In this document: positions 6,571 to 29,700 of the stretch, piece after piece
Position numbering within the stretch: position 1 is the first letter of the stretch
Layout of the letters: every line of letters starts with the position of its first letter
Origin: an uncultured Clostridia bacterium
Lineage (GTDB): Bacteria; Bacillota; Dehalobacteriia; UBA4068
Length of the DNA: 32,181 bases
Assembly: GCA_944393575.1 (NCBI GenBank)
Contig: CALYAP010000054.1
Location: 1 to 32,181 of the forward strand
Reading direction: 5' to 3'
Program-made: the position numbers and the translations under genes
Notes under the pieces: generated by a model
What the model was told of the DNA's origin: nothing
Seen by the model: only the letters and a program-made list of their open reading frames with translations
The model's database searches: none

Positions 6571-6617
6571 AAAATAAAATAGCCTCTCCTATACTGAGAG
6601 GCTGTTTTTATTTTATC
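6571..6617. terminator. Bidirectional terminator between converging genes
   Basis: An 8-bp perfect stem (AGCCTCTC 6581-6588, GAGAGGCT 6596-6603) is flanked by an A-rich tract on the left and a T-rich tract on the right. It can end both the + strand protease transcript and the - strand molybdenum operon. Confidence 0.8.
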
Positions 6618-6716: not shown

Positions 6717-7670
6717 TTAATAATCGCTAAAATGCTTTTCTAGCTGTTTAACGCTGTAGCGTTCCACACTGCGGCGAAATTTGCGGTAAGCATCAAGAAA
6801 TTTAGCGCCCCGGTTCGTCAAATGCGAGCCACCTCCACCTTCGCCACCGCGGCTGCTCTGTAAAAGAATAAAACCTAACTGCTCCTCAGCCCGTCTAATG
6901 CTCTGCCAACCATGGCTATAAGAAACGCCAGCCTGTTTGCAGGCACGTGCCAAAGATCCATACTTTTCCGTCAGCTCCAAAATTTTAGCCAGCTGCTCAT
7001 CAAAGAAGCTTTCAGTACGACATAAGGAGACCTTAGCCCGACAGGACAGCGGCGGCAGCTGGGCAGTACTCTCAGAATATTGCTCAAGACGGCGATAATC
7101 CTCTGGATTGTCTGCATCCATTACCAACCCCTGGTCGGGCAGAGCGATAATCACCTTCCGCGCTCCAGAGCTATCAATAGCGCCCTTCAGTCCGCCTTCC
7201 CCTTGATAGGCTATGAGCTCACCGATCAGCTCATTGGTAAAAAGCACCGGGTGCCCCTGCCGTCCATTATAGGCGGGGATAAGAATCTCACACGGGTACT
7301 GGTCCATATATTCATTCATCGCGGTGACGCTATAATGTGAAAATAGCGGCACATCTCCGGGGAGAAAAAAGACCCGATCTGCCCTTCCTTGGATAGCCCG
7401 CAGACCCAAACAAGCAGAGTAAAACATATCGGTGTGAGAATAGTCTTCATTCATCACCGTTTCCACACCCATATCGAGGATATGCTCAGTCAGCTCGCGT
7501 CCATTTCTGCCGGTAACAACGATGATCGGCGCTATCGATGCTTTCTGCAGCGTGCCAATCAGGGTTCGGATAACAGTAGCCCCGGCCAGCGGCAGCATCG
7601 GTTTGAACGAATGCATACGTGAACTCATGCCGGCAGCGACGATCACAGCTCCGGTGATCTTAGTGCTCAT
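6717..7670 (-). CDS. MobA/MocA-like NTP transferase fused to a ModE-type winged helix (DVU_1551-like)
   Basis: A 317-residue protein. The ATG at 7670 is chosen because GGGGGAG lies about 7 bases before it; the gene overlaps the preceding stop by 11 bases. Residues ~1-190 form a nucleotidyltransferase of the MobA/MocA/GlmU fold: GAVIVAAGMSSRM, then KPMLPLAG, and the metal-binding FLPGDVPLF. Such enzymes add CMP or GMP to molybdopterin. Residues ~235-317 resemble the N-terminal winged helix of ModE (ACKQAGVSYSHGWQSIRRAE, then a Gly-rich loop and LTNRGAKFLDAYRKF), which binds DNA in molybdate regulation. Likely role: making the cytosine dinucleotide form of the cofactor for the aldehyde oxidoreductase upstream, with a DNA-binding or regulatory add-on. 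It is the last gene of the operon. Nucleotide specificity cannot be read from the sequence. Confidence 0.85.
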   Translation of the reverse strand: MSTKITGAVIVAAGMSSRMHSFKPMLPLAGATVIRTLIGTLQKASIAPIIVVTGRNGRELTEHILDMGVETVMNEDYSHTDMFYSACLGLRAIQGRADRVFFLPGDVPLFSHYSVTAMNEYMDQYPCEILIPAYNGRQGHPVLFTNELIGELIAYQGEGGLKGAIDSSGARKVIIALPDQGLVMDADNPEDYRRLEQYSESTAQLPPLSCRAKVSLCRTESFFDEQLAKILELTEKYGSLARACKQAGVSYSHGWQSIRRAEEQLGFILLQSSRGGEGGGGSHLTNRGAKFLDAYRKFRRSVERYSVKQLEKHFSDY

Positions 7671-8046
7671 GACACTCTCCCCCAGAAGTACTGCCAGGAC
7701 AGCCGCTACCACCGATATCATCGGTAATCATCGGCAGTTGATCGTTGATAAAAAGCTTGACTGCCTCTGTCGCCGTCTTACCGGCACCATTATAGCGGCT
7801 GATACCTTCCCCAGCCAAAAGCTCGAAGGGTTCCTTACGGATCTCACCACAGACAATAGCTTCACAGTTTTCTTCTATCGTCCGTTGAGCAAAGGCCAAG
7901 TCGCGGTTCAGCGGCTCAGCTTCATAAATATGAGTGACCTCAAATCCCTCCACATCAACAATAAATAAATATTTAGCAGTAGAAAATTTGCTGGGGATAA
8001 AAGAATCCGCCTGATTCCCCGTAGTAGCAACAGATATCTTCATCAT
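7660..8046 (-). CDS. NifX/NifB-C-terminal-like (dinitrogenase FeMo-cofactor domain) protein with Cys/His tail
   Basis: A 128-residue protein starting at ATG 8046 (AGGAGG at 8055-8060, 8 bases upstream; the site overlaps the preceding stop). An upstream in-frame TTG at 8049 is less well spaced. The fold is the RNase H-like 'Nitro_FeMo-Co' domain: it begins MKISVATTGNQADSFIP, continues with a FIVDVEG strand, and has the NCEAIVCGEIRKEPFELLAGEGI segment. Proteins of this family carry or insert metal-sulfur cofactor precursors. The tail GSGCPGSTSGGECHEH adds two Cys and two His and probably binds metal. No nitrogenase genes are nearby, so a carrier role in molybdenum-enzyme maturation is the likelier reading. 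Family call good; role inferred. Confidence 0.85.
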   Translation of the reverse strand: MMKISVATTGNQADSFIPSKFSTAKYLFIVDVEGFEVTHIYEAEPLNRDLAFAQRTIEENCEAIVCGEIRKEPFELLAGEGISRYNGAGKTATEAVKLFINDQLPMITDDIGGSGCPGSTSGGECHEH

Positions 8047-8058
8047 CAACTAATCCTC

Positions 8059-9033
8059 CTATATTTTATGTCCCTCTACGGCATCCAAGCGCTTCAGCGG
8101 ACTGCCGCAGCGGCACGGCGCAACTATCAAACGGGAGATATCTCCGGTACGATACCGCAATAGAGGCATAGCCTCTCTGGTCAAAGTGGAGATAACTATC
8201 TCCCCCCATTGGCCGTCCGGCAAACGCTGGCCGCTTTGAGGGTCAATTATTTCCAAGAATAAATCAGCATGGCGGATATGGTGTCCATCATGCTCTGGGC
8301 ATTCCACCGCTCCCCCGAGACCTGTTTCACGCATTCCCCAATGAGAAAAGACTTCTGTTTGCCATAGTTGCTCGATCCTCTGTCTCAGCTCATCAGGGAC
8401 ATTATCAGCAGATAGCAGCACGGTTCGCGGCCGCAGCTGCGGATAAAACTCAGCTAAGGCTAATACCTGCTGCGGCACCCCCACCAAACAGTGCGGCTGA
8501 TGCTCAGCAGCATAGACAGCGGCATCTTTAATATCGCGAAGGTACCCATAAACCAACGGCTCAATATGATCCCGCCGCAACCCGCGAGCCAACAGATCGC
8601 CCAGCCCGTCGGGAGTCTGCCCATCCATGCAGATCATCACCCGTTCTCCGGGAGCAGTCATAAAAAGCATGCCATTGGCAAAGAAGTCAATCGTCAGCTC
8701 CAAATCTGCCTCTGAAAAATAGATCCGCTTGGGTGCAGCGGTGCTGCCGGAGGTCATCATCGTGACAATACGTTTGATCCGGCTTTGCGATAAGCAGACA
8801 ACACTGGTTCCGGCTGCCACGATATCCTCCGAAGAAATCAGCGGCAACGATAAGGGGTCGTCCAGATCATATCCAGCATAGAGCTGGCGGTAAAAGCGGC
8901 TATGTTCTACCACATAAGAGGCCTGGCGGCGTAGCGCTTCCAACTGATAAGCATCTACCGCCTGCTGGGTTATGGGGCCGTCGATTTGGCAATGCCGGCC
9001 GATCCATTGGTCAAAAAGCGCTGTCGCTGTCAT
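8059..9033 (-). CDS. PaaK-like adenylate-forming enzyme without C-terminal lid domain (DVU_1553-like)
   Basis: A 324-residue protein. The ATG at 9033 shares a base with the methyltransferase stop (TAATG) and has GGAGG 7 bases upstream; the longer frame to 9090 is not needed. Adenylation motifs: MMTSGSTAAPKRIYFS (phosphate loop), SHWGMRETGLGG (A5), and LLRYRTGDISRL (A7). A CRCGSP motif follows, as in phenylacetate-CoA ligases, and the protein then stops at EGHKI, just where the ~100-residue lid domain with its catalytic lysine would begin. Full-length PaaK enzymes are near 430 residues. It may therefore bind or adenylate a carboxylate without completing CoA transfer, or use a partner. The stop TAG is followed at once by the next gene's ribosome site, so there is no sign of a recent frameshift. 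Substrate unknown. Confidence 0.82.
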   Translation of the reverse strand: MTATALFDQWIGRHCQIDGPITQQAVDAYQLEALRRQASYVVEHSRFYRQLYAGYDLDDPLSLPLISSEDIVAAGTSVVCLSQSRIKRIVTMMTSGSTAAPKRIYFSEADLELTIDFFANGMLFMTAPGERVMICMDGQTPDGLGDLLARGLRRDHIEPLVYGYLRDIKDAAVYAAEHQPHCLVGVPQQVLALAEFYPQLRPRTVLLSADNVPDELRQRIEQLWQTEVFSHWGMRETGLGGAVECPEHDGHHIRHADLFLEIIDPQSGQRLPDGQWGEIVISTLTREAMPLLRYRTGDISRLIVAPCRCGSPLKRLDAVEGHKI

Positions 9034-9662
9034 TATCTTGCCTCCGCTACTAAAAGCAAATATCCAGCTCCGGCCTGCCGTAATGCGCAACGATCAAGTC
9101 CTAATCTCCGGTAGGCTTCATCTTTACCATAATCAAGAATCATCTGTCCCAGCATCGTCTTGAGAATCTCGCCGCAGTCCTCAGCATGCATCAGGTTAAA
9201 GCTGGCTGCTGTCAGCATGGAGCGAAACTGATTCACACTATATAGCTGTCTGATCATTCCTTCCCCGCAGATACCAACAGCATTACGGGCATAGGTATCG
9301 GTGATAATCAGTTTGCCACCCGGCATCAGCACCCGGTGAATCTCATTTAAGGCTACCGCTGGCTGCATGAACAGCGAAACGCTGCACTCTGCCAAAGCAA
9401 TATCAAAAGTAGCTGCCTCAAAAGGCAAATCTTCTGCACTCGCCAAAGCGATCTCCACCCCGGGATTATTAGCCAAAGCCTGTGCCCGCCGTTTTGTATC
9501 AGGCTCAATAGCAGCCACCTGACAGCCATATTCCTCTCTGATCATCGCCAGGCTTTCTCCATTGCCACAACCAATATCCACCAACCGGCTTTCTGGCTCT
9601 ACCGGCACAAAAGATAGGGCATGGCGAGTCAATTCCAGACCTCCGGGGCGCAAGCAACTCAT
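9033..9662 (-). CDS. trsM: SAM-dependent class I methyltransferase (DVU_1556/TrsM-like)
   Basis: A 209-residue protein. The ATG at 9662 overlaps the radical SAM stop (TAATG), indicating translational coupling. Rossmann-type SAM-binding motif LVDIGCGNGES at residues ~27-37, acidic end of strand 2 in AAIEPD, then a GKLIITDTY segment typical of the Methyltransf_11 family. The N-terminus MSCLRPGGLELTRHAL matches what I recall of the TrsM group; some members are said to be selenoproteins, but here the frame has ordinary codons and a Cys near the start. It sits between the radical SAM and the adenylate-forming gene and probably acts on the same substrate. Methyltransferase fold clear; substrate unknown; the symbol is a recollection of NCBI family naming. 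Confidence 0.85.
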   Translation of the reverse strand: MSCLRPGGLELTRHALSFVPVEPESRLVDIGCGNGESLAMIREEYGCQVAAIEPDTKRRAQALANNPGVEIALASAEDLPFEAATFDIALAECSVSLFMQPAVALNEIHRVLMPGGKLIITDTYARNAVGICGEGMIRQLYSVNQFRSMLTAASFNLMHAEDCGEILKTMLGQMILDYGKDEAYRRLGLDRCALRQAGAGYLLLVAEAR

Positions 9663-10981
9663 TACTCAGTCCCCCCCAAAGTCAAATAACGAGCGCAGAA
9701 GGGCATAAATTTGCCATCTTCATAAACATGGAGACTGCAACGGCGGATACGCTCAATATCCAGGTTATAAGCATCCTGGAAAGCCATTGCCGTCACGGTA
9801 AAAGAGCGCGTTTTGGCTTGCCGCAAAAAATCATCCAGATCATCCGGCTCACCTGCCACATATTGGGCTGCTGGCGCTGCCGTAACTTCCTCTTCCTGGC
9901 TGCGTGTCCAACGGCGGCCGATATATTCACGGTTCTGCTCCGCAGTAGTCACCCCGCAGCAGCAGCCTTCGCTATCCGGTTTGGTCAGCGCGATAAAGCG
10001 GCCGTCCTCCATAGCGATAAAACTGCTATGAAAGCCACAAAGCGGGTGATCGCAATGCGACGGAGCAATATTAGTGATATTGACCAACCCATTGGTCTGT
10101 CTTCCTAGATCTGCCACCAGCTCTGCCAGCGTATAGCGGTCCTCATTGGCCGGAGGAGCAGGATAGCGACCAAAGTATGATATCGGCTGAAAGTGGACGC
10201 CCCTTACTGCCGGCACTTGGCTGATGCCAAAACGGACGATATTGCCAATATCATCCGTATTGACCCTTGGTACCAAAGTTGGTACCAAGGTCACGCCGAT
10301 GCGATACTTGGCGCAGTTAGCAATCGCCTGTTTTTTAAGCTCCAAGAGCGGTTTACCCCTCAATTTACGGTAGATATCATCCCTAGTCCCATCGAACTGC
10401 ATGAAGACAAAAGACAACCCTGCTTCAGCCAGGGCAGCTACATAAGCCTCATCTTCAGCCAAACGAATACCATTGCTATTGAGCTGGAGATATTTACACC
10501 CCACGTTCTTGGCATAGGCAACAATCTCCGGCAGATCATCGCGGACAGTAGGCTCTCCGCCAGATAGTTGCAAAAAAGTCTTGCCTGGACGGGTCAAGGC
10601 AAGGATATCCTCTTTGATTTTGGCTAAGGGGATATCGTCGCCTGCACCACCTTCAGCAAAGCAAAAACTACAATGCAGATTGCAGCGCCGGGTCACTTCA
10701 TAGAGCACACAGCAGGTATCGGTGAGATGGTGTTGGCATAGACCGCAATCATAGGGGCAATTCGGATTATAATCATCTCCCAGCGGCTCATTACCACACA
10801 TCCAGGAGCTGATACTCAGCCTGCCCCTCCAGATCACTGTAGAAAAATCACCATGCTCCGGGCAACTCTTTTCCAAAAAAATATCCTCGCCATGCCGCAC
10901 TCTCTGTGCTGGCAGCTGTCTACCACAGACCGGGCAAATGCTGCGGGTATGACCAATGATGATATCTTTTGTTTCCTTCAT
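9662..10981 (-). CDS. trsS: Radical SAM enzyme (TrsS-like)
   Basis: A 439-residue protein from ATG 10981 (GAGG at 10990-10993, 8 bases upstream); an in-frame TTG at 10984 is less likely. The [4Fe-4S]/SAM motif CNLHCSFC has Cys100, Cys104 and Cys107. Before it are a zinc-ribbon-like stretch (Cys16, Cys19, Cys40) and a Cys-dense segment (Cys62, 75, 79, 82, 90, 91). Downstream are the SAM-binding LSGGEPTVRDDLPEI and FVFMQFDGT strands. The C-terminus carries CGFHSSF, a CCCG run, CSLHVYEDGKFMPFC and ends LGGTE. The many extra Cys suggest auxiliary clusters. The arrangement is similar to the radical SAM group that includes archaeal tetraether lipid synthase. In this operon it more likely modifies a cofactor, a protein partner or an enzyme substrate. 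Reaction unknown. Confidence 0.88.
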   Translation of the reverse strand: MKETKDIIIGHTRSICPVCGRQLPAQRVRHGEDIFLEKSCPEHGDFSTVIWRGRLSISSWMCGNEPLGDDYNPNCPYDCGLCQHHLTDTCCVLYEVTRRCNLHCSFCFAEGGAGDDIPLAKIKEDILALTRPGKTFLQLSGGEPTVRDDLPEIVAYAKNVGCKYLQLNSNGIRLAEDEAYVAALAEAGLSFVFMQFDGTRDDIYRKLRGKPLLELKKQAIANCAKYRIGVTLVPTLVPRVNTDDIGNIVRFGISQVPAVRGVHFQPISYFGRYPAPPANEDRYTLAELVADLGRQTNGLVNITNIAPSHCDHPLCGFHSSFIAMEDGRFIALTKPDSEGCCCGVTTAEQNREYIGRRWTRSQEEEVTAAPAAQYVAGEPDDLDDFLRQAKTRSFTVTAMAFQDAYNLDIERIRRCSLHVYEDGKFMPFCARYLTLGGTE

Positions 10982-11000
10982 CAATCTATCCTCTGATAAC

Positions 11001-11189
11001 TTATTTATCCTCTAACTCCGCTTCAGTATTACGCATCTTCCCCTCGGCCAGTTCTTTGGATACATAGACCTGGCCACAGCTGGGGCAACAAGGCAAGTCT
11101 TTATGCAAATGATGCCCATAATAATCAAAAAAGGTCTCCGTCATTTCCAGGCTTTTTCCACAAAGGGCGCAAATGATTTTTCTCTCCAT
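11001..11189 (-). CDS. Small double-CxxC redox/zinc protein, copy 2 (DVU_1557-like)
   Basis: A 62-residue protein. The ATG at 11189 is preferred over 11228 because AAGGAG lies about 6 bases before it and because it makes the protein the same length as its paralog at 12421-12609. CALCGKSLEM and CCPSCGQVYVS give two CxxC knuckles, and the end is EAELEDK. About half of the residues match the paralog. Likely binds zinc or an Fe-S/Fe centre and works with the neighbouring CCG-domain protein. Which metal it binds cannot be told. Confidence 0.85.
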   Translation of the reverse strand: MERKIICALCGKSLEMTETFFDYYGHHLHKDLPCCPSCGQVYVSKELAEGKMRNTEAELEDK

Positions 11190-11230
11190 AGCTGGCTCCT
11201 TCTCTTTACCCTGGCCATCCAGATCCACAA

Positions 11231-12388
11231 CTACTCACCGCTAACCCTCTCGCCATCAGCAGGAGGTCCTTCCACTCGTTCCATACGGTGAAAATAGACG
11301 CTTAACAATTGATAGGTGCGCTCACCCAAAGGCCGGTATTCAGCCCAAATCGTTACTCCGCACAATGGTAGATGAGCGATGTTGATACCAGCTTCATCGA
11401 TGAATTTCATCCCGCTTTGTTCGGCACGGGCGATCAGCCGCCGCACATGATCGGCTGAGATCAGACTGTCATCCATCATCTGTGCTACTTCATCGTCCAT
11501 CACTAGCTTGATGCCGAGACATTCCTCTTTCTCCTTACCAAGCGCCAATGCTTTGGCTAGGCGACGGTTATCGCGACGCAGACTTAGATGCGGCGTCGGC
11601 CGCTCCAAACCATTGAGTCCGGTGACTAGATCAAGAATATGTAGTGATTCTTTGCCAGCGCCGGCAAAAACATCACGGCAGTTGACACAATAAGCCAGAT
11701 AAGGGCGCGGCTCTGAGCTAATATGAGCTTTAGCGGCCGCTTGCGCCGCCGCCAAATTAGGCCCCTCGATATTACCGCCAAAGCCGCAACAGGGCAGAGT
11801 ATGCATATCCTCATGGAGAATATGATAAGGCACTCGCATCCTTTCCAACAGCGTACAGACTGCTTTACGCACCGCTGTCTCATCACGGGCCATGCATGGG
11901 TCGGCGAGGGCCAGCTCCGGCATTCCTTCGTAAATTGGCAGTGACAGATCATCCGCTGCGGCCAGAATTTCATACACTGTCACGGGTTGAACATCTGGAA
12001 GAACATAATCGATGATCTTCTTGCAGCTCATGCAGGCTAATACCAATGTTGGTTTTCCTAGCTGTTCCCATTGCTGATGCAGCGCATTTTGCACCGCACG
12101 GTACTGCTCAATCTCGCCCACCCAATAAGATGGCGCCCCGCAGCAACTCAGCCACATCGCTGTGGCTGGCTCTACTTGGCAGAGCAGCTGATAAACCGCT
12201 TGCGGATAGCGAGGATCCGAGGCTCCCAACTGGCAGCCGGGGAAGAAAAGGTATTTGAGTTTTCCCTCATACTGTTGTGGTACGATTAAAGCCTCAGCAT
12301 CGCCACGCGCCTGCTCCATCTCCTCCAGCCAAAAATCATGAGGAAACGGCGGCAGCTTCTTACGGGAGAACATCCTTTTCCAACCCAT
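11231..12388 (-). CDS. CCG-domain (HdrB-like) Fe-S protein, partial duplicate of the neighbouring oxidoreductase
   Basis: A 385-residue protein; ATG at 12388 with AAGGAGG about 10 bases upstream. After a short N-terminus (residues ~1-47) it aligns end to end with the C-terminal ~390 residues of the 751-residue protein at 12636-14891: YLFFPGCQLGASD, SCCGAP, ADPCMARDE, LPCCGFGGNIEG, YCVNCRDVFA, then a shared C-terminal domain (MDDEVAQMMDDSLIS, KFIDEAGINIAHL, TIWAEYRPLG). The Cys pattern forms two CCG repeats, which in heterodisulfide reductase HdrB hold noncubane [4Fe-4S] clusters. It lacks the FAD and ferredoxin-like parts of its larger relative, so it is probably a partner subunit or a stand-alone thiol/disulfide centre. 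A clear product of gene-module duplication. Confidence 0.87.
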   Translation of the reverse strand: MGWKRMFSRKKLPPFPHDFWLEEMEQARGDAEALIVPQQYEGKLKYLFFPGCQLGASDPRYPQAVYQLLCQVEPATAMWLSCCGAPSYWVGEIEQYRAVQNALHQQWEQLGKPTLVLACMSCKKIIDYVLPDVQPVTVYEILAAADDLSLPIYEGMPELALADPCMARDETAVRKAVCTLLERMRVPYHILHEDMHTLPCCGFGGNIEGPNLAAAQAAAKAHISSEPRPYLAYCVNCRDVFAGAGKESLHILDLVTGLNGLERPTPHLSLRRDNRRLAKALALGKEKEECLGIKLVMDDEVAQMMDDSLISADHVRRLIARAEQSGMKFIDEAGINIAHLPLCGVTIWAEYRPLGERTYQLLSVYFHRMERVEGPPADGERVSGE

Positions 12389-12420
12389 CCCGATCCCCTC
12401 CTTAAGGGCAGCTACTCAGT

Positions 12421-12609
12421 TTATTTATCCTCTAGCTCCATTTCCGCTTCGCGAACCTTTCCTTTAGCAAAATCATAAGAAATATAAGGCTGCCCGCATT
12501 TAGGACAACAGGGAACGTCCTTGCGGAATTCATGATCAAAATATTTGATAACTACCTTTTTTATCTCCAACTCTTCGCCGCATTTAGCGCATTTTACATG
12601 TTTATCCAT
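12421..12609 (-). CDS. Small double-CxxC redox/zinc protein, copy 1 (DVU_1557-like)
   Basis: A 62-residue protein starting at ATG 12609 with AAGGAG about 7 bases upstream. It starts MDKHVKCAKCGEELEIKK, has CCPKCGQPYISYDFAKGK in the middle and ends EMELEDK. Two CxxC knuckles predict a rubredoxin-like or zinc-ribbon fold. It lies between the large oxidoreductase and its truncated paralog, 26 and 32 bases from each, and has a second copy at 11001-11189. The matching pairs suggest each CCG protein has its own small partner. Confidence 0.87.
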   Translation of the reverse strand: MDKHVKCAKCGEELEIKKVVIKYFDHEFRKDVPCCPKCGQPYISYDFAKGKVREAEMELEDK

Positions 12610-12635
12610 CAGCAGCTCCTTCTTTCATCCGCAGC

Positions 12636-14891
12636 TTACTGCGGTATTCCCTCTTCCCGGTCTGGCTCAACGATAGTCATCCGGTGCATATAGCAGTTAA
12701 CCACCTCATATTCATTGTCGCCGATCTGCCGGTATTCTACCCAAATAGTGGGCAGACCGATCACTAAATGGCCAATGCTAATTCCATCGTCATCAATAAA
12801 TTTGCTGCCGGTACGCTCAGAATATTCGATCACCTGGCGGATATCCTCCTCAAAGATCAGGCTCTCGTCCATCCTGGCAGCGATCTCGTCATTATACACC
12901 AGTTTAATTTTCGGCTCCTCCATAATGACCTCCTCATTGGTAAAGAGAGCACGAGCTCTCACCCGGTTTCTCCGCCGCTCACTGATATGCGGCGGCTCAC
13001 GTCTGCCATCGTCATCTAACCCTGCCATGAGGTCGATGATATGCGCCGCTGCTTTGCCGCCGCTAGCAAAAATATCGCGGCAATTAGCACAATAAGCTAT
13101 ATAAGGGCGTGGGTCTGCCTCAACCCTGTTCTTGCGCATCATCTCAGCCAGTTCGGGATTAGCGCCAACGATATTGCCGCCAAAACCGCAGCAGGGCATC
13201 TCTTGGATCTTCTTATATAGCAACTGATAAGATACACCCATCTTATCCAGCAATGCACAAACGCTCGGCCGAGCCTGTTCATCAAATTTAGCAGAGCAAG
13301 GGTCGACCACTGCATATTCATCTTTATCAGCATAGGAAGGAAGCTGCAATTGTTCGGATTTGCTCAGCACCTCATACAAAGAGACAGTTTCAATCTCTGG
13401 CAAGAAATGACGGAACAAACGCAGACAGGTTTGGCAGGCACAGACCATCACTGGTTTACCGGCCTCTTCCCACTGATCGCGCACTTTTCCGAGCATTTCC
13501 TGATGCTGTGCCGCATCGCCAGCCCAATAGGCAGGCGCGCCGCAGCAGGTAAGCAGCGCTGCAGTATTTGGCTCCACCTGGCGCAAAAGGTCATAAGCTG
13601 CTTTCGGATAACGCGAATCAGAAGCGCCTAATTGGCAGCCAGGGAAAAAGAGATATTTAGCGGCGTGGCCTTCAGGAACAGGGAAATAGAGATACGCCTG
13701 GTCACCAACAGCATGCAGCATATCGCGAATCCAATAATAATGATAAGCTGGCGGTATCTTCTTGCTCTCGAACATCTCCCGCCTTGCTGCCAACAGTTGC
13801 GTACCGTTATCGATATCAAAGGGGCACATCTCTTTACAAACACCGCAGTCAGTGCAGGAATTAACCATACGGTTATGGGATTTTGGCTCCAGGTTCATGT
13901 CTGCCAAGCCAAAAGCAGTAAAATTGGCCACCTGGCGTGGATTATAGCGGTAGTATTGCAAAAATTCACAGTGATCTTGGCAATGAGAACAATCACAGCG
14001 CAGGCAGCGCTTGGCCTCATTAATCGCTTCCTCTTTGGTATAATGGCCATTGTCAGTGCCTACGGTACGCTGTTGCGGCGCTACACCATCAGTAAAAACA
14101 TGGAGGCGGGTCGTCCGGCTGCGTTCTGGAGTAAAAGCCATTGCCCCAGTCATAAAGTGTTTCTCAATATTGATGGCAGCCTCTGCCCCCTGAGCAATAG
14201 CCCAGGCAGTGTCAGCGCCCAGCACCCGTCCGCCAATAAACACCCCTTTGGGTCCATTGAGAGGATTGCCATTCTCATCTGCGGAAAGGCCAAAATTATT
14301 GCCGCCTTCACCTGTTGCGATATAGACAGCATCAAAATCCTTCAATTCATCCAATGATTTAATCTCACGGTTAAAGACTGTTTCATAGGATAAATATTTA
14401 CCCTGGGTAGCGATATCAGCCAAGAAGACCTCGGAATCCATCAGCTCCCACAGTTTACCGCCGATACGGTCAGTCTTTTCAAAAACAGTCACCTGGTATT
14501 TCTTAGCTGCCAATTTAAAGGCACAAGCCAGTCCACTAATACCGGCGCCGATAACAGCAATCTTTTTATCTTTAACCGGCACGTTGAAATTGATTGGGTC
14601 CAGGCTGCGGGCATATTTGACTGCTGCCCGTTCCAATTCCAACAGGTCAATAGCATCATCGATACCACCGCGAGTACAGTGATCCATGCAAGGATGCGAG
14701 CATAGTTCAGCGACAATGCGGGGGAAAACTACTGCATTGCGGTAAGTTTTAACTGCGGCATCAATGCTGCCACGGCGATACTTGCCGATAAAATCACGGA
14801 CTTCCAGATGAAAGGGACAAGCGCAAGCACAGGTTGGCTGGTCTCCCTGACAACATTTATCCGGATAGAATTGATCAAAGGATTCGTACAT
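12636..14891 (-). CDS. FAD/NAD(P)-type oxidoreductase with Fe-S and CCG (HdrB-like) domains (DVU_1558-like)
   Basis: A 751-residue protein; ATG at 14891 with GAGGTG upstream. Parts in order: GltD/dihydropyrimidine dehydrogenase-type Fe-S domain (CCQGDQPTCACACPFHLE, CSHPCMDHC; residues ~14-70), FAD-binding GAGISGLACAF with FEKTDRIGGKLWEL (~115-155), CLRCDCSHCQDHC (~300), ferredoxin-like CTDCGVCKEMCPF (~345), two CCG repeats (GCQLGASD, CCGAPAYW, CACQTC; DPCSAKF, PCCGFGGN, CANCRD; ~415-620), and a C-terminal domain (~665-751) shared with the 385-residue protein. This architecture suggests electrons pass between a flavin, several clusters and a thiol/disulfide or the partner molybdenum enzyme. 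The usual second NAD(P) nucleotide-binding motif is not obvious, so the donor is uncertain. It is first in the accessory block behind its own promoter. Confidence 0.88.
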   Translation of the reverse strand: MYESFDQFYPDKCCQGDQPTCACACPFHLEVRDFIGKYRRGSIDAAVKTYRNAVVFPRIVAELCSHPCMDHCTRGGIDDAIDLLELERAAVKYARSLDPINFNVPVKDKKIAVIGAGISGLACAFKLAAKKYQVTVFEKTDRIGGKLWELMDSEVFLADIATQGKYLSYETVFNREIKSLDELKDFDAVYIATGEGGNNFGLSADENGNPLNGPKGVFIGGRVLGADTAWAIAQGAEAAINIEKHFMTGAMAFTPERSRTTRLHVFTDGVAPQQRTVGTDNGHYTKEEAINEAKRCLRCDCSHCQDHCEFLQYYRYNPRQVANFTAFGLADMNLEPKSHNRMVNSCTDCGVCKEMCPFDIDNGTQLLAARREMFESKKIPPAYHYYWIRDMLHAVGDQAYLYFPVPEGHAAKYLFFPGCQLGASDSRYPKAAYDLLRQVEPNTAALLTCCGAPAYWAGDAAQHQEMLGKVRDQWEEAGKPVMVCACQTCLRLFRHFLPEIETVSLYEVLSKSEQLQLPSYADKDEYAVVDPCSAKFDEQARPSVCALLDKMGVSYQLLYKKIQEMPCCGFGGNIVGANPELAEMMRKNRVEADPRPYIAYCANCRDIFASGGKAAAHIIDLMAGLDDDGRREPPHISERRRNRVRARALFTNEEVIMEEPKIKLVYNDEIAARMDESLIFEEDIRQVIEYSERTGSKFIDDDGISIGHLVIGLPTIWVEYRQIGDNEYEVVNCYMHRMTIVEPDREEGIPQ

Positions 14892-14976
14892 ATCTACACC
14901 TCACGATTTATCAATGACACGGCAGCAGACTGCTGTGCCGATGAGTTCAAGATACCTTAAAACGCTCCTATCTTAT

Positions 14977-15005
14977 ATTCTACCAAAAGTATATAGATAA
15001 TGCAA
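14977..15005 (-). promoter_or_regulatory. Internal promoter for the accessory-gene block
   Basis: On the - strand TTGCAT (15005-15000) and TAGAAT (14982-14977) are 17 bases apart. Transcription would start near 14970, leaving an ~80-base leader that contains an imperfect palindrome at 14920-14940. The -35 box overlaps the left arm of the 15-bp hairpin at 15002-15035. Confidence 0.6.
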
Positions 15006-15035
15006 TGGTACTGTTCTGTCGAACAGTACCATTGC
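15002..15035 (-). repeat. 15-bp perfect hairpin downstream of the aldehyde oxidoreductase
   Basis: Arms GCAATGGTACTGTTC (15002-15016) and its exact complement (15021-15035) flank a 4-base loop, starting 49 bases past the enzyme's stop codon. On the - strand it is followed by TATC and an AT-rich run, not a clean T-tract. It could be a terminator or attenuator, an mRNA-stabilising 3' structure, or an operator over the adjoining promoter. Confidence 0.8.
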
Positions 15036-15084
15036 TATTGTTATATCGATTGGCTTTTGCGCTAATCTACTTTGCAGCTCTAGA

Positions 15085-17922
15085 TTAGACAGGATTGTTC
15101 TCGATCTCTTCGAGTTCATCATAGAGATCATTGCCGAGGAAGTAAGGAGCCGGTGGCTCGATCTTGCCGCCTGCAGCGAGAATATCCAGACCAGCTTTGA
15201 TCTTTTCAGGAGTTGCCGGCAGTTCGTAAATACGGACGCCGCAAGCACGGTAGATACCGTTGATGACAGCCATATGGCCGGCAGACTGATAACCTTCGGA
15301 GCAACCAGCAGAACCATGATCCAAGCAGGTACGTGGAGTTACGCAGTGATAGATGCGCAGATCATCCGGAGTATCGAGCGGATAAGGAACACCAGCGCCT
15401 TTCAGGTTGGCATGTTTCTTAACATCATCGTAGTTCTCAGAGAGAGCAAAACCGATGCTGTGGGAAGCGCCGCCATAAGCCTGGCCTTCAACAGAGATTG
15501 GGTTACCGATAACACCGACGTCATCGACGATGACAAAGCTCTTGCAGGTGGCTTTACCAGTAGCCATGTCAACTTCGACATCAGCCATGAAGAGGTTATA
15601 CATATAAGTCAAAGACATATCGACCTCACCGTTGTTCGGGTTGAGGTTAACCAGCTTCAAGTCAGCAGCCGGGATCTCATAGTTACCATCCCATTTGGTG
15701 GGCAGGCCTTCTGCGACCAACTCATCATAGGTGCGGTAAGTGCCGTCCGGTTTCTTCATATCCTTGAGCATTGCTTCTGCAGCCAGATGGGTAGCAGCAC
15801 CAGTCATCAGATGCAGACGGGAGGAAGAAGCCATACCGGTGTTCGGGCAGTACTTGGTATCACTGGAGTAAACTTTGACTTTGTCCGGAGTGATGCCGAG
15901 CGGTTTGAGGTAATGGCAGGTATGCAGGATGCAGCCTGCGTCGCCGCCCTGACCCTGGTCTTCCCAGGTGCCGAAGTGGGTTACGGTACCGTCAGGATTC
16001 AGTTCCAATCTAACTTTAGCGAAGTCAGCAGCACCACCGGTGCAGGAGAAACCGCCGACGGAAACGCCAACTGCTCTTCTCTTCTCAGGAGTGGATTCAG
16101 CAGCTGCTTTCTTGCACATTTCTTCGTAGATCGGACGGCCTTTCTTCATGATACCAGGCATGCAGTATTCACGGAAAGGATAGCCATTAACGGTCAATTC
16201 ACCAGGCTTAGCAACATTCAATTCACGGAAATCAAATGGATCCATGCCGCATTCATAAGCCATCATATCGGTCAGGGACTCAATGAAGGTAGCGGACTGC
16301 GGAGCACCGAAACCACGGTAAGTGGTAGCATAGTCATGGTTAGTGTAAGCAGTACGATACAGGCCACGGGCATTGGGGATTGGATATGGGAAAGCGGTGA
16401 AACGGACGAAACGGTTGGTGATGGAGTCAGCCATATCATGGTAAGCACCATGGTCGCAGCCGAAGTCGCATTCCATAGCAATGATGCGTCCGTTCTCATC
16501 AGCAGCCAGACGGCCATTGCTGAAGTGAGGAGCACGTTTGCCGGAGAAGTGCTGATTCTCTTCCCAAGTCATGGTCAGGGTAACAGGGGTCTTCAAAGCC
16601 ATTGCGCAAGCGCCGGCGATCGCATAAGAATGCGGGCTAACAGCAGCACCGAAGCTAGCGCCGGTCGGATTCTCGATCAAGCGGAGATCTTTCGGGTCAA
16701 CGCCGAGAGCCGGAGCGATATAGCTGTGCTGTTTATAAATACCCTGAGCTTTGCAGGCGATGGTCAAGATACCATCTTCATCATAGAAAGCTTGGACAGA
16801 GTCTGGCTCAATCATCAGATGCGGTTCACGGGTGCTGTAGAAGCTACCGCTGACCACATGCGGAGCAGTCTCAAAGATTTCACGAACATCTTTACCGCGG
16901 ATCAACGGCTGTTCAATATAAACATTAGGATAACCAGGATGGATCTCAATGGCATCCGGAGTAGCAGCATCGAGGTAGTTGCGGTATTCGGGCAGCGGCT
17001 CAACCTCTACTTTAACAGCAGCAGCGGCAGCACGAGCATGCTCACGGGTATCAGCAGCTACGCAACCAACAACGTCGCCATAGCGATAGATCTTGTCATC
17101 GCAGAAGACTGGCCAGGTTGGCTTGTCAACTTTAGCACGTGGATGGTTGACGCGAACACCCAGCAAATTGGTGCCCTGGATATCTTTAGCGGTAACGACC
17201 TTCACGACACCAGGCATTTTCTCAGCTTCGGAGCAGTCGATGTTTTTGATCTTAGCATGATGAGCCACACGGGGCATAACGATAGCCAGATGCAGGGTTC
17301 CGGGTGGCATTTTCAGGGAGATATCATCGCCGTAATCGCAGGTACCGCAGACTTTAGGCAGAGCTGCTGGACGCAAAACAGGAGTGCCATAGTACTCGCC
17401 GTCTTCAGGAAGCTGATATTCCAAGGTAGAAGGATCAGCCTCACCACGCATTACGGCAGCTGCTGCCATAACGCTGTCAACGAGCGGTTTGTAACCGGTG
17501 CAGCGGCAAACGTTTTTGTTTTTCTGGAACCATTCGCGGACTTCTTCGCGGGTCGGGTTGGGATTCTTCTGCAACAGAGCATAAGAAGAAACAATGAAAC
17601 CAGGGGAGCAGAAACCGCACTGAACGCCGCCGTAACGGATCCATGCTTTCTGCAGCGGATGAAGGTTGAACGGAGTGCCGATACCTTCGATAGTGATGAT
17701 CTCAGAGTTGTCCTTGATGTTCTTCATTTTCTTGGTGCAGGCGCGAACGACCTCGCCGTCCAAGATCACGGAGCAAGCACCGCAGATACCGATGTTGCAG
17801 CCAATCTTCGTTCCCGTCAAACCAATCCGGCGCAGCAAAGTTGCCAGCGTGTCTTTCTCAACATCGCAGAAGACAAAACGCTCAGCGCCATTGATGATCA
17901 GAGGGATTCTTCTGATGTTCAT
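15085..17922 (-). CDS. Molybdopterin-dependent aldehyde oxidoreductase (xanthine oxidase family; DVU_1559/Mop-like)
   Basis: A 945-residue protein; ATG at 17922 with AGGAGGAG upstream. The N-terminus carries both [2Fe-2S] domains: plant-type Cys42, 47, 50, 62 and helical-type Cys102, 105, 139, 141 (CGFCSPGF, CRCTGY). These are the D. gigas Mop positions shifted by two. The Mo-binding part follows, with GASFGAAVSPHSY, YRGFGAPQSATFIES and, near the end, GQAYGGASHSIGFALSEN, where the last Glu is the expected catalytic base. There is no FAD domain, so it is a Mop-like single-chain enzyme (Mop ~907 residues) rather than a three-subunit xanthine dehydrogenase. Expected reaction: oxidation of an aldehyde or hydroxylation of a related compound, passing electrons to Fe-S or flavin partners. 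Substrate unknown. Upstream on the - strand TATACT at ~17965 may be a -10 box, but no good -35 is seen. Confidence 0.93.
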   Translation of the reverse strand: MNIRRIPLIINGAERFVFCDVEKDTLATLLRRIGLTGTKIGCNIGICGACSVILDGEVVRACTKKMKNIKDNSEIITIEGIGTPFNLHPLQKAWIRYGGVQCGFCSPGFIVSSYALLQKNPNPTREEVREWFQKNKNVCRCTGYKPLVDSVMAAAAVMRGEADPSTLEYQLPEDGEYYGTPVLRPAALPKVCGTCDYGDDISLKMPPGTLHLAIVMPRVAHHAKIKNIDCSEAEKMPGVVKVVTAKDIQGTNLLGVRVNHPRAKVDKPTWPVFCDDKIYRYGDVVGCVAADTREHARAAAAAVKVEVEPLPEYRNYLDAATPDAIEIHPGYPNVYIEQPLIRGKDVREIFETAPHVVSGSFYSTREPHLMIEPDSVQAFYDEDGILTIACKAQGIYKQHSYIAPALGVDPKDLRLIENPTGASFGAAVSPHSYAIAGACAMALKTPVTLTMTWEENQHFSGKRAPHFSNGRLAADENGRIIAMECDFGCDHGAYHDMADSITNRFVRFTAFPYPIPNARGLYRTAYTNHDYATTYRGFGAPQSATFIESLTDMMAYECGMDPFDFRELNVAKPGELTVNGYPFREYCMPGIMKKGRPIYEEMCKKAAAESTPEKRRAVGVSVGGFSCTGGAADFAKVRLELNPDGTVTHFGTWEDQGQGGDAGCILHTCHYLKPLGITPDKVKVYSSDTKYCPNTGMASSSRLHLMTGAATHLAAEAMLKDMKKPDGTYRTYDELVAEGLPTKWDGNYEIPAADLKLVNLNPNNGEVDMSLTYMYNLFMADVEVDMATGKATCKSFVIVDDVGVIGNPISVEGQAYGGASHSIGFALSENYDDVKKHANLKGAGVPYPLDTPDDLRIYHCVTPRTCLDHGSAGCSEGYQSAGHMAVINGIYRACGVRIYELPATPEKIKAGLDILAAGGKIEPPAPYFLGNDLYDELEEIENNPV

Positions 17923-18054
17923 ATAGTCTCCTCCTCAACAAATAAAATATTATTTAATTAGTATATCCAATGCTTCCATGACCTAACATGGGCAAAGACC
18001 AAAATTATTTGCGCGCTCTGCTTAGCGCTTAACGATAAACAGGCAGTAGGATCA

Positions 18055-18498
18055 TTACTCGTCTTCGTTGAACATTTCTTCCAAAATAGCTATCGCATCT
18101 AAGACTAGGCCAGGACACAGCTCAAAAACTTTGCCCGTAGCAAAGGCTTCCTCGCGTTGCTTAGCGTCAGCAAAGTCATAACCAAGCAAATCGCGGCAAA
18201 TCAAACTTTTACGGCGATCGGTGAATTTCTGCTGAAATTCTTTGACTTTCTGTTGGCAAAGCGCGTCCTGCTCGATATTTCCCGGCTCGTCATTACCATA
18301 TTTCAGGCCAATAGCAATCATTGCGCCAGCTACCGCACCACAAGTATCTCCGCGGAAACAGCCGCCACCAAAAGCATTGGCCATTTTATACGCCTCTTCG
18401 CGGCTATAACCTAGTTCCTCTGCAAATTCACCAAGAACAATCTGCGAGCAGTGAATCTTGCTTTTAAACAAATCTGTTACTTGCGCTTTGGTCAACAT
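18055..18498 (-). CDS. C-GCAxxG-C-C family protein (DVU_1555-like)
   Basis: A 147-residue protein. The ATG at 18498 is chosen because GGGAGGG (18506-18512) ends 7 bases before it; an in-frame TTG at 18504 would sit inside the site. The family Cys pattern is visible: HCSQIVLGEF, FGGGCFRGDTCGAVAGAMIAIG, LCQQK, ICRDLLGYD, and LCPGLVLD. Members are small redox or metal-binding proteins of unproven function, often beside molybdenum enzymes and Fe-S oxidoreductases. It is 132 bases upstream of the aldehyde oxidoreductase on the same strand. A weak GCGCT/AGCGC stem at 18013-18028 lies between them, so the two genes may be separately transcribed. Confidence 0.87.
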   Translation of the reverse strand: MLTKAQVTDLFKSKIHCSQIVLGEFAEELGYSREEAYKMANAFGGGCFRGDTCGAVAGAMIAIGLKYGNDEPGNIEQDALCQQKVKEFQQKFTDRRKSLICRDLLGYDFADAKQREEAFATGKVFELCPGLVLDAIAILEEMFNEDE

Positions 18499-25865: not shown

Positions 25866-26426
25866 TTATTCAGCAGGGGTGGTCTCACCGTCTACATTGG
25901 TGTTTTCATCAGTGGTCTCACCGTCTACAGGAGCGTTAGCATCTTCGCCATCAACGGGGGTATTCTCATCTGCAGGAGTGTTGGCGTCTTCACCATCAAC
26001 TGGGGTATTCTCATCTACAGGAGTGTTGGCATCTTCGCCATCAACTGGGGCGTTTTCATCATCCAAAGGCAGGTTGTCGATGTTGCTGGTAGCTTCATAG
26101 CGGAGCTCGATAACATCGCCTTCTGCAAGGGTGTAATCTGCAGCGCCGACAGTGGAGAGAGCATCATTGACATAGAAGAACCAAGAGTTCTCATCGCCGT
26201 TAGCAAAGCCATTGATGTTGTCATACATACCATTTTCGAAGGTGTAGGTGATATCGCTAGCATCCATGTTAGCATTGAGCAAATCAGCAGCAGTGGAACC
26301 AGCATCTTCAGCAGCAGCGGTAGCGGTGATTTCTGGAGCAACTGCATCACCCTCATCAGCAGGAGCGCAAGCAGCCAGAGAAACTACCAACATCAGAGAG
26401 ACCAAAATAAGTAAAGCTTTTTTCAT
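25866..26426 (-). CDS. Lipoprotein with DUF4430-like domain and acidic repeat tail
   Basis: A 186-residue protein; ATG at 26426 with AAGGAGG about 9 bases upstream. The signal peptide ends in the lipobox SLAAC, so the mature protein is lipid-anchored at Cys19. Residues ~55-115 (YTFENGMYDNINGFANGDENSWFFYVND, TLAEGDVIELRYE) resemble DUF4430, related to the C-terminal fold of transcobalamin-type proteins. I break the quotation here: the key features are NGFANG, SWFFYVND and GDVIELRY. The last ~70 residues are an acidic repeat of a 15-residue unit with core NTPVDGEDANTP, encoded by 45-base tandem repeats. Binding partner unknown; a link to cobalamin or another small molecule is only a possibility. 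It stands alone with its own promoter, long leader and terminator. Confidence 0.82.
   Translation of the reverse strand: MKKALLILVSLMLVVSLAACAPADEGDAVAPEITATAAAEDAGSTAADLLNANMDASDITYTFENGMYDNINGFANGDENSWFFYVNDALSTVGAADYTLAEGDVIELRYEATSNIDNLPLDDENAPVDGEDANTPVDENTPVDGEDANTPADENTPVDGEDANAPVDGETTDENTNVDGETTPAE
25928..26062. repeat. Three tandem 45-bp repeats inside the lipoprotein gene
   Basis: Copies at 25928-25972, 25973-26017 and 26018-26062 differ at only a few, mostly third-position, bases. They encode the acidic 15-residue unit. A shorter related repeat continues to the left. Confidence 0.88.
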
Positions 26427-26795: not shown

Positions 26796-29700
26796 ATGCT
26801 TGCAAAATTCAGTGTCAAAAAACCCATGACCATTGTTGTGGCCATTATTTTGATTATTATTCTCGGAGTAGTCTCCTTTCTCAATACCGGGGTAGATCTG
26901 CTGCCAGATATAGAGCTGCCCTATGTGATAGTAATGACAACATACCCTGGCGCTGCACCAGAGTCAGTGGAAAATGATATCACTAAACCATTAGAATCAT
27001 CGCTCAGCCTAGTCAGCGGGCTACAGAATATTTCCAGTGTCTCAGCAGAAAATGTCTCAATGGTCTTGCTCGAATTCAACCAAGAGATCAACATAGACAG
27101 TGTTATGGTAGAGCTCTCCTCACTGGTCGATACCGCAGCGGCCACCTTTCCCGATAATGTAGCTACGCCGACAATTCTACGGATCAACCCCTCTATGCTA
27201 CCGGTAATGATGATGACCGCTGACATGGAGGGCATGACGGATGTCGAGTTCTCCGAATTTGTTGAAGAAAATGTTATTCCCTCCTTTGAGCGTTTGGAGG
27301 GTGTAGCCAGTGTCGAGGCAATGGGTCTGATTACCCAGCAGGTCACACTGGAATGGAATGAAGAGGCTATCGAGCATTATAATGATCTGATTCTCAATGA
27401 AATAGACAGCCAACTGGCTCAGGCCAAAGTTGAACTGGATCAAGCTAAAGCTGAATTAGAACGCTCCAAAGCCGAGCTGTCAGATAGGCAAGAAGAGCTT
27501 TATAATGAGCTGGGCGAAGCCTCCTCTCAGCTGGAAGCTGGCCGGCTGCAATTACAGCTAGGCCTAAACGAGCTGGCCAGTGCTCCTGATGAACTCCGGG
27601 CTCAACGGGAGGAATTGGTTCAAAGCCGCGAATCCCTGCTGGCGATGTTGGATATGTTCACTGCTGCCGAGCAAATCGAAGATGGCTTAACTCAGCTGGA
27701 AGAGGCTATCGCTCAGATGACCGCTGTTTCCGATGAGCTCTCCGCCCAGTTTGGTAGCTCTGCTGCGGCAGTACGTGCACTAGAGGACCAGCAGTCAGCC
27801 ATGACTATTGCTTACCAGGACTATCAGACGGCATTAACCGGTGGTGATGCCCAACAAATCACTGCCGCCACCACAGAATTACTTACCCAAATACAAACCT
27901 CAGCTTCCCTGCTTAGCCAATTAGCTGCTATTCTTCCCGATGATGGCAGCAGCGGCTCCGGCAGCTTCGATCCCTCTATCCTCCAAGACCCAGATCTAGC
28001 TTATGCAACAATCAATGAGCTGTTTAGCCAAACCATCTCCGGCCTTGATGAGTTCATCAGCGGACAAAGAGAAGCCGAAGCAGCTTATACGGAACTCCAA
28101 ATCCAGCAGAGCAAACTAGAAATGGCCATGGCCATGGCTGGGGGAATGAGCGAACAGGAGGTAGAAGATGCTATTGACCAAATTGACGAAGGGATTATCG
28201 CTATCGATAAAGCCCTCCTAGTCGATCTGCCAGAACAACAGCAGCAATTAGAAGAACAAAAAGCTGAGTTGGATAACAGCGCCACGGAGCTGGAAACCGG
28301 CAAAATGGCACTCTCAACAGAGCTCTCCTCCGCCAGTGTGCAGCTGGCTATCGGCGAAAGTCAGCTCGATGCAGCCTATAGCGAATTTGAGCAACAACGC
28401 GACCAAGCCTTTAAAGACGCCGGTCTCCAAGGTGCGCTCACACCAGAGCTTTTGGCCACCATTTTGGGCGCCGAGCATTTCTCCATGCCTGCCGGATATA
28501 TCCAAGATGGCGCGGGCGAAATTCTGCTCAAGGTTGGCGATAAATTTCTCTCCTTGGAGGAGTTGTCTGATTTCACCATCATGAATGTCGATATCGAAGG
28601 TGTGGGAGAAATCAAAGTCAGCGATATCACTGAAGTCTCGATCAGCGATGATTCAGGTGAATACTATGCTTTGGTTAATGGCAATCCCGGCTTGATCATC
28701 TCCATTCAAAAGCAAAGCCTCTCCAACACCGTTGATGTTGCCGACAGCATCAATGAAACTATGGAAAGATTAATGGCAGAGAACGAAGGGCTTCATCTCA
28801 ACGCCATTTCTGACCAAGGATATTATATCAATGTTGCTATCAATAGCGTGCTCAACAATCTCCTCCTGGGAGCAATATTAGCTATTGCCGTTCTGGCTAT
28901 CTTCCTTAGAAGTATCCGTCCGACGGTGATCATCGCCTTCTCGATCCCCATATCACTGCTTTTTGCCCTCACGCTGATGTATTTCTCCGGGGTTACCATC
29001 AATATGATCTCCCTGGCTGGTCTGGCGATGGGAGTTGGCATGTTGGTCGACAACAGTATCGTGGTCATTGAAAATATCTTCCGTCTGCGCTCTGAAGGCA
29101 AGAGCGCCGCCACTGCCGCAGTGGTTGGCGCCAAACAAGTGACAGGAGCGATCGCAGCCTCGACGTTGACTACAGTCTGTGTTTTCCTGCCGGTGCTGTT
29201 TACCCAGGGACTTACCCGTCAGATCTTTGCCGATATGGGTCTGACTGTCGCCTATTCACTCCTGGCCAGTCTGCTGGTTGCCTTAACCTTGATCCCGGCT
29301 GCTGCCGCCAATATTCTTACCAAAGAGCCACCGCCCAGCAAAATGCAGCAGAAGATGGTCAATAAATATCTACATCTGTTAAAATTAAATTTACAGCATA
29401 AATGGGTAGTTTTTGTTATCGCCGGCGGAGTAATCGTTGTCACCGGTATCGCTATAGCCAGTATGGGTACTTCATTGATGCCCTCAGTCGATTATGGGCA
29501 GCTTTCGATCACCCTTACTGCCGAGGATGAGGAGGCCAGCGAAAGCGAAGTTCAGGCCTTGGCAACCGAAACAATGCAGCTGATCATGGATAATGTCGAG
29601 GGTTTGGATATTGTTGCGGCATTAGAAAACAGCGGTGGTGCGATGAGTATGTTCAACACCAGCAACGATAGCAAAGCTATCTCCATGTATGTGCTGTTAG

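Follow-up and report, generated by a model that had tools for sequence, protein, structure and literature searches.

A conserved Mop-TrsS aldehyde oxidoreductase operon in an uncultured Clostridia bacterium and a tentative small-molecule role for its helper genes

Introduction

The aldehyde oxidoreductase (AOR) of Desulfovibrio gigas (PDB 1sij/1vlb), a member of the Mop family, has for decades served as a model for molybdenum enzymes. Its crystals hold a pyranopterin cytosine dinucleotide (PCD) with an equatorial oxo ligand in place of sulfido, and sulfido is not needed for catalysis, with dioxo-molybdenum present in crystals of the active enzyme (PMC3877041). A Mop gene also lies in the Desulfovibrio vulgaris neighborhood DVU_1551-1559, the families of which have already been named (NCBIfam NF045645, NF045646, and NF045663 to NF045669). 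Since accessions NF045663 to NF045669 are consecutive (dicluster protein, XdhC_rel_AOR, DVU_1551 nucleotidyltransferase, DVU_1553 ligase, DVU_1556 methyltransferase, Mop, and DVU_1555 CGA), we infer that the NCBI curators treated the cassette as a set. Its radical SAM enzyme, TrsS, is among the selenoprotein families in a 2026 review (PMC13188914) that cites Haft and Tolstoy 2025, which may cover the neighborhood. Our literature searches on the DVU locus and related subjects returned no functional study, and the literature searched held no explanation for the gene neighbors of the D. gigas AOR. Selenium-dependent molybdenum hydroxylase systems (YqeB, EF2568 type) likewise combine a molybdenum hydroxylase with dedicated accessory genes.

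Here, we describe an operon of this kind in a 32,181-nucleotide stretch of DNA (the window) from an uncultured Clostridia bacterium (Bacillota; Dehalobacteriia; UBA4068; assembly GCA_944393575.1, contig CALYAP010000054.1, positions 1 to 32,181). A first-pass annotation made from the letters alone had noted a likeness to DVU_1551-1559 and called the chemistry unsolved; the NCBIfam family names back the match, and no published chemistry was found in the literature searched. L and G numbers below are our labels for loci and genomes.

Operon structure

The eleven genes proposed by the first-pass annotation are all present on the minus strand, from 18498 to 6717, with NCBIfam or Pfam identities and intergenic spacing that ranges from overlap to about 190 bp. 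A bidirectional intrinsic terminator (6576..6608; 13-pair stem on the plus strand, 8-pair stem on the minus strand, a T run for each) lies 3′ of the operon, where the scan gave 2 hits against 0.1 expected. Gene order is conserved among the loci from a sample of 199 genomes of the window's phylum; with this order and the co-occurrence described below, the grouping exceeds chance.

The first gene encodes a C-GCAxxG-C-C (CGA) protein (18055..18498; PF09719, 104 bits), which passes the generic model TIGR01909 (58 bits; cut-off, 47.4) and falls below the DVU_1555-specific cut-off (49 bits; cut-off, 103). The second encodes the Mop-type molybdopterin-dependent aldehyde oxidoreductase (15085..17922; 945 amino acids [aa], without an FAD domain), which matches NF045668 over residues 8 to 912 (1172 bits; cut-off, 1100) and aligns with D. 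gigas AOR 1sij at 46% identity (E = 6.7e-264). The catalytic Glu (E869 in D. gigas) is kept (E864 column, alignment A1), as are both 2Fe-2S ligand sets (invariant Cys columns, alignment A1); in the pocket, the alignment places V at F425 and F at Y535 of the D. gigas enzyme. The selenium-dependent xanthine dehydrogenase model TIGR03311 gave 375 bits (cut-off, 830). A profile search of the window's genome returned this Mop as its sole MoCoBD_1 protein. Family membership and the MocA-like gene in the operon point, indirectly, to a cytosine dinucleotide cofactor and aldehyde oxidation.

Directly downstream of Mop, as in 44 of the 55 loci that leave space for it, is a gene for an FAD/NAD(P), 4Fe-4S dicluster, and HdrB-like CCG protein (12636..14891; NF045663, 693 bits). 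Its distances correlate with those of Mop (Mantel r = 0.84); the corresponding values are 0.45 to 0.59 for TrsS, the methyltransferase, the ligase, and MocA and 0.27 for XdhC. The FAD/CCG protein is the probable electron-transfer partner of Mop. It is followed by a small CxxC protein of the DVU_1557/DUF7479 family (copy 1, 12421..12609; NF045645, 68 bits; cut-off, 60), an HdrB-like CCG protein (11231..12388; NF045663 positions 380 to 756, 327 bits), and a second DUF7479 protein (copy 2, 11001..11189; NF045645, 69 bits). The CCG protein is 46% identical over 372 aa to the C-terminal half (residues 371 to 742) of the FAD/CCG protein, and DUF7479 copy 2 is 48% identical over 62 aa to copy 1; the two genes seem to have arisen by partial duplication of the pair before them.

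TrsS (9662..10981; NF045646, 535 bits; cut-off, 490) is a radical SAM enzyme like the tetraether synthase Tes (PDB 7tol; E = 4.6e-69), with which it can be aligned over residues 13 to 306, covering the N-terminal zinc ribbon and the radical SAM domain. It scores 299 bits against the Tes family NF045702 (cut-off, 450), however, and differs from Tes both in its C-terminal region, which is distinct and bears a Cys/Sec motif, and in that its genes sit with Mop. The ribbon matches PF23545, a domain family named for a pterin methyltransferase, and Cys311 of the window protein aligns with a TGA (Sec) codon in two relatives (L092 and L241). Next come a SAM-dependent methyltransferase of the DVU_1556 family (9033..9662; NF045667, 179 bits; cut-off, 155) and a PaaK-like adenylating enzyme (ligase) of the DVU_1553 family (8059..9030; NF045666, 403 bits; cut-off, 300). 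The latter shares the adenylation domain with PaaK and coenzyme F390 synthetase, but it scores below both of their cut-offs and aligns with PaaK 4r1l only up to the hinge, with a tail of 26 aa after RYRTGD and no C-terminal lid with the catalytic Lys. A tblastn search of the window for a displaced lid fragment found none. The first-pass annotation's lidless enzyme was thus correct for the window but not for the family: a C-terminal part of 100 to 142 aa, often ending near a GKR/AKR-like motif, is kept in 23 of 29 relatives, which rules out lid loss as a family trait, and the short form occurs in the window, L112, L107, L080, L222, and L084.

The last two genes encode a NifX-like (Nitro_FeMo-Co) protein (7660..8046; PF02579, 47 bits; cut-off, 26) and a fusion of a MocA-like CTP:molybdopterin cytidylyltransferase with a ModE DNA-binding domain (6717..7670; TIGR03310, 121 bits; TIGR00637, 62 bits; both below the curated cut-offs). 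Both were seen correctly in the first pass, but neither typifies the cassette: NifX-like genes are sporadic (3 of 62 Mop loci), which rules them out as core members, and ModE fusions are a minority form, found in the window and three other loci, the D. vulgaris-like nucleotidyltransferase being of the MocA-HD type. ModE replaces HD in the window protein, which scores 195 bits against NF045665 (DVU_1551 nucleotidyltransferase; cut-off, 315).

The first-pass annotation had also treated the lack of XdhC as a clue. XdhC is indeed missing from the window but not from the genome, where contig C14 carries a copy with the AOR-type NF045664 as its best family (308 bits; cut-off, 350; generic XdhC, 145 bits). 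This XdhC probably serves the window Mop, since the genome has no other MoCoBD_1 protein. With this copy, and with XdhC lying within the cassette in D. vulgaris-like loci, the absence loses its value as a clue. In one other genome (G030), the Mop-TrsS locus is present without an XdhC match.

Mop, the dicluster FAD/CCG protein, DVU_1557, CGA, DVU_1556, TrsS, DVU_1553, and a MocA-type nucleotidyltransferase are thus common to the window and DVU_1551-1559, and the window's TrsS, DVU_1556, DVU_1553, DVU_1557, and dicluster proteins all score above the cassette-family cut-offs. The window differs in having no XdhC in the locus, MocA-ModE rather than MocA-HD, a lidless ligase, an extra NifX-like gene, and a duplicated CCG/DUF7479 pair, and in CGA and nucleotidyltransferase scores under the DVU-specific cut-offs. 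The accessory set is also shared with D. gigas: a protein of genome G290 is 100% identical to 1sij over 206 residues, and the D. gigas locus (L220) holds Mop, FAD/CCG, DUF7479, methyltransferase, CGA, TrsS, ligase, and XdhC. The D. gigas cluster differs from the window locus in its XdhC, and the pocket residues of the two enzymes differ as noted above. The long-studied enzyme is hereby placed in a conserved nine-family cassette, which makes the question of the helper genes testable in genetically tractable Desulfovibrio.

Co-occurrence of the cassette with Mop

In the phylum sample (TrsS, ≥469 bits; Mop, ≥950 bits), TrsS was found in 12 of 199 genomes, and Mop was found in all 12. Mop was present in 14 genomes, the two extra matches being fragments at contig ends. 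Of the 12 TrsS genomes, 11 had the DVU_1553 ligase at ≥275 bits and 11 had the full dicluster protein at ≥690 bits, whereas none of the 187 others had either at that level. Among 119 Desulfovibrionaceae, 71 had both Mop and TrsS, 2 had only Mop, 2 had only TrsS, and 44 had neither. Fisher tests for these two main samples gave p = 1.6e-17 and 1.2e-27, values that are descriptive, as kin genomes are not independent. One of the two TrsS-only genomes (G389) is no exception to the pairing, since the final part of a Mop gene lies at the start of its contig; the other (G276) has TrsS and the ligase without a detected Mop.

Beyond these samples, TrsS was present in 34 of 41 genomes reached via Mop loci of several phyla, and those without it were all metagenome assemblies. 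Among 36 control genomes reached via other xanthine-oxidase-type genes, TrsS and Mop occur in exactly the same 3. The profiles bear out a genuine cassette that is widespread and linked to Mop, and the co-occurrence of TrsS with Mop, for which the first-pass annotation had suggested profiling, is near-obligate.

The cofactor genes can be separated from the TrsS set. In one Mop clade (L101, L104, and L223), the flanks hold neither FAD/CCG nor TrsS; in L223 the order is Mop-XdhC-MocA-Mop, and TrsS is absent from the genome to which this locus belongs (G327). On the evidence of this small and possibly incomplete genome, Mop can have MocA and XdhC as companions in the absence of the TrsS set.

Other TrsS and Mop neighborhoods

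TrsS-like genes adjoin DMSO-reductase-type molybdoenzymes in L071 (3402-5585), L069 (2134-4320), and L072 (10458-12644), with TIGR04282-like transferases also present in L069 and L071; the pairing is apparently separate and undescribed. Another TrsS-like sister adjoins YqeB (L230). In L241 (9135-16570), a Sec-encoding TrsS, a ligase, a methyltransferase, and DUF7479 adjoin a tungsten aldehyde oxidoreductase (W-AOR) instead of Mop, a single case in a genome that also carries Mop. W-AORs as a class have no cytosine dinucleotide.

A tandem TrsS pair with a ligase and no Mop nearby was found in L221 (7234-12349), L228 (9220-16148), and L229 (1104-5112). DUF5714 and an MFS-like transporter (the latter read by eye) accompany it in L228, and a double-cubane/HGD-D-like (dehydratase-like) gene and, by eye, a DUF5714-like gene do so in L221. 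Distant TrsS-like genes (L237, L238, and L074), with neighbors that are Lgt-like by eye, were treated as a separate branch and excluded.

EF2568-type cysteine desulfurase genes lie near TrsS in L239, L246, L251, and L258, and ModABC-like genes, judged by eye from the sequence, do so in L245 and L251; the window locus has neither an EF2568-type desulfurase nor YqeB. Recurrent near Mop loci are MoCF-domain proteins (16 of 60; e.g., L112, 16361-17383) and alpha-ribazole-phosphatase-like histidine phosphatases (15 of 60; e.g., L084, 2932-3597).

Possible roles of the helper genes

We tentatively read the operon, at somewhat under even confidence, as one anaerobic aldehyde-oxidizing unit built of modules, in which the TrsS module would supply a small molecule used with Mop. 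Mop would oxidize an aldehyde at a molybdopterin cytosine dinucleotide center and send the electrons through its two 2Fe-2S clusters, from which they may pass to the FAD/dicluster/CCG and DUF7479 proteins, a module that appears partly duplicated in the window. Synthesis of the cytosine dinucleotide cofactor would fall to MocA-ModE, which may also act as a molybdate-dependent regulator, and its delivery to the AOR-type XdhC from contig C14. TrsS, the methyltransferase, the adenylating enzyme, and CGA would form a dedicated module that uses SAM and ATP, most likely in the synthesis or processing of a small organic molecule; this molecule would be either the aldehyde or carboxylate substrate of Mop or a redox partner for the CCG protein. 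The molybdenum cofactor of the mature enzyme would not be the target of the module. The substrate of this module is the weakest part of the proposal. What the sequences show directly is the gene content, the conserved co-occurrence, the presence of XdhC, and the way in which Mop, FAD/CCG, MocA, XdhC, and TrsS behave as modules, which sets the cofactor module apart from the unexplained radical SAM module; the reactions of Mop, the electron-transfer proteins, and the cofactor genes are deduced from their families.

The TrsS module might instead build a permanently methylated, sulfurated, or selenated molybdenum cofactor or modify a Mop residue. The first-pass annotation had offered a modified, sulfurated, or selenated cofactor beside a dedicated substrate pathway, and the naming of the TrsS ribbon family for a pterin methyltransferase, the encoded methyltransferase and MocA, and the cysteine desulfurase of some loci agree with permanent modification. 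The D. gigas Mop, however, is encoded beside the cassette and has an ordinary PCD with dioxo-molybdenum (PMC3877041). Because the crystallized enzyme has a plain PCD and an oxo ligand, a lasting change is unlikely in the D. gigas branch; the window branch is 46% identical with pocket changes, and its cofactor could differ, which tempers the argument. Overall, permanent modification is quite improbable, and the substrate or small-molecule pathway survives better. More plausible, though it too falls short of the small-molecule role, is a transient part in Mop assembly or activation, such as loading the cofactor, handling metal or sulfur, or reductive repair, with no permanent trace in the mature enzyme. 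Near-obligate co-occurrence with Mop fits such a part, as does TrsS beside a W-AOR. MocA, AOR-type XdhC, EF2568-type cysteine desulfurase, MoCF-domain protein, and ModABC-like genes, held by many cassettes, also fit it and count against a small molecule, as do the TrsS-like sisters by DMSO-reductase-type enzymes and YqeB, which suit a cofactor or assembly role. Yet for PaoABC of Escherichia coli, an enzyme with molybdopterin cytosine dinucleotide, the helpers described are MocA and the XdhC-type chaperone PaoD (PMC2997495), with no such set among them. A Mop clade with MocA and XdhC lacks TrsS, and one genome with TrsS and ligase has no detected Mop.

For TrsS, the methyltransferase, the ligase, and CGA, we accordingly favor the small-molecule role, although its chance stays a little below even. 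Besides the D. gigas cofactor, it is favored by the Mop-XdhC-MocA-Mop genome without TrsS, by the TrsS-ligase-methyltransferase-DUF7479 set next to a W-AOR, and by the tandem TrsS pairs with a ligase that stand apart from Mop, among them those beside an MFS transporter or a dehydratase-like gene. Weighing against it, no transporter is a regular cassette member, acyl-CoA formation normally requires the lid that is missing from the window ligase, the W-AOR case is one locus, and the genome without TrsS is small and possibly incomplete. That the helper genes are mere neighbors, functionally unlinked to Mop, could be argued from the broad superfamily to which each family belongs and from the TrsS and ligase genome without a detected Mop; the Fisher values, the significant distance correlations, and the occurrence of the genes together over several phyla contradict this and largely refute it, leaving it very improbable. 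A wider extension of the small-molecule role, which we consider unlikely though less so than permanent modification, is that TrsS-type enzymes as a general class are accessories to molybdenum and tungsten enzymes belonging to three families that are unrelated to one another (Mop, DMSO-reductase type, and W-AOR) and, with the methyltransferase and adenylating enzyme, would make an undescribed shared organic cofactor or redox partner.

Other features of the window

An 895-codon open frame runs antisense to Mop (15274-17961, plus strand) and is probably a codon-usage artifact. Elsewhere in the window are genes for a lipoprotein-like protein with a repetitive VDGEDANTP-type tail (25866-26426, minus strand) and for an RND-type transporter-like protein of 1386 aa with a long coiled-coil-like insert (26796-30956, plus strand).
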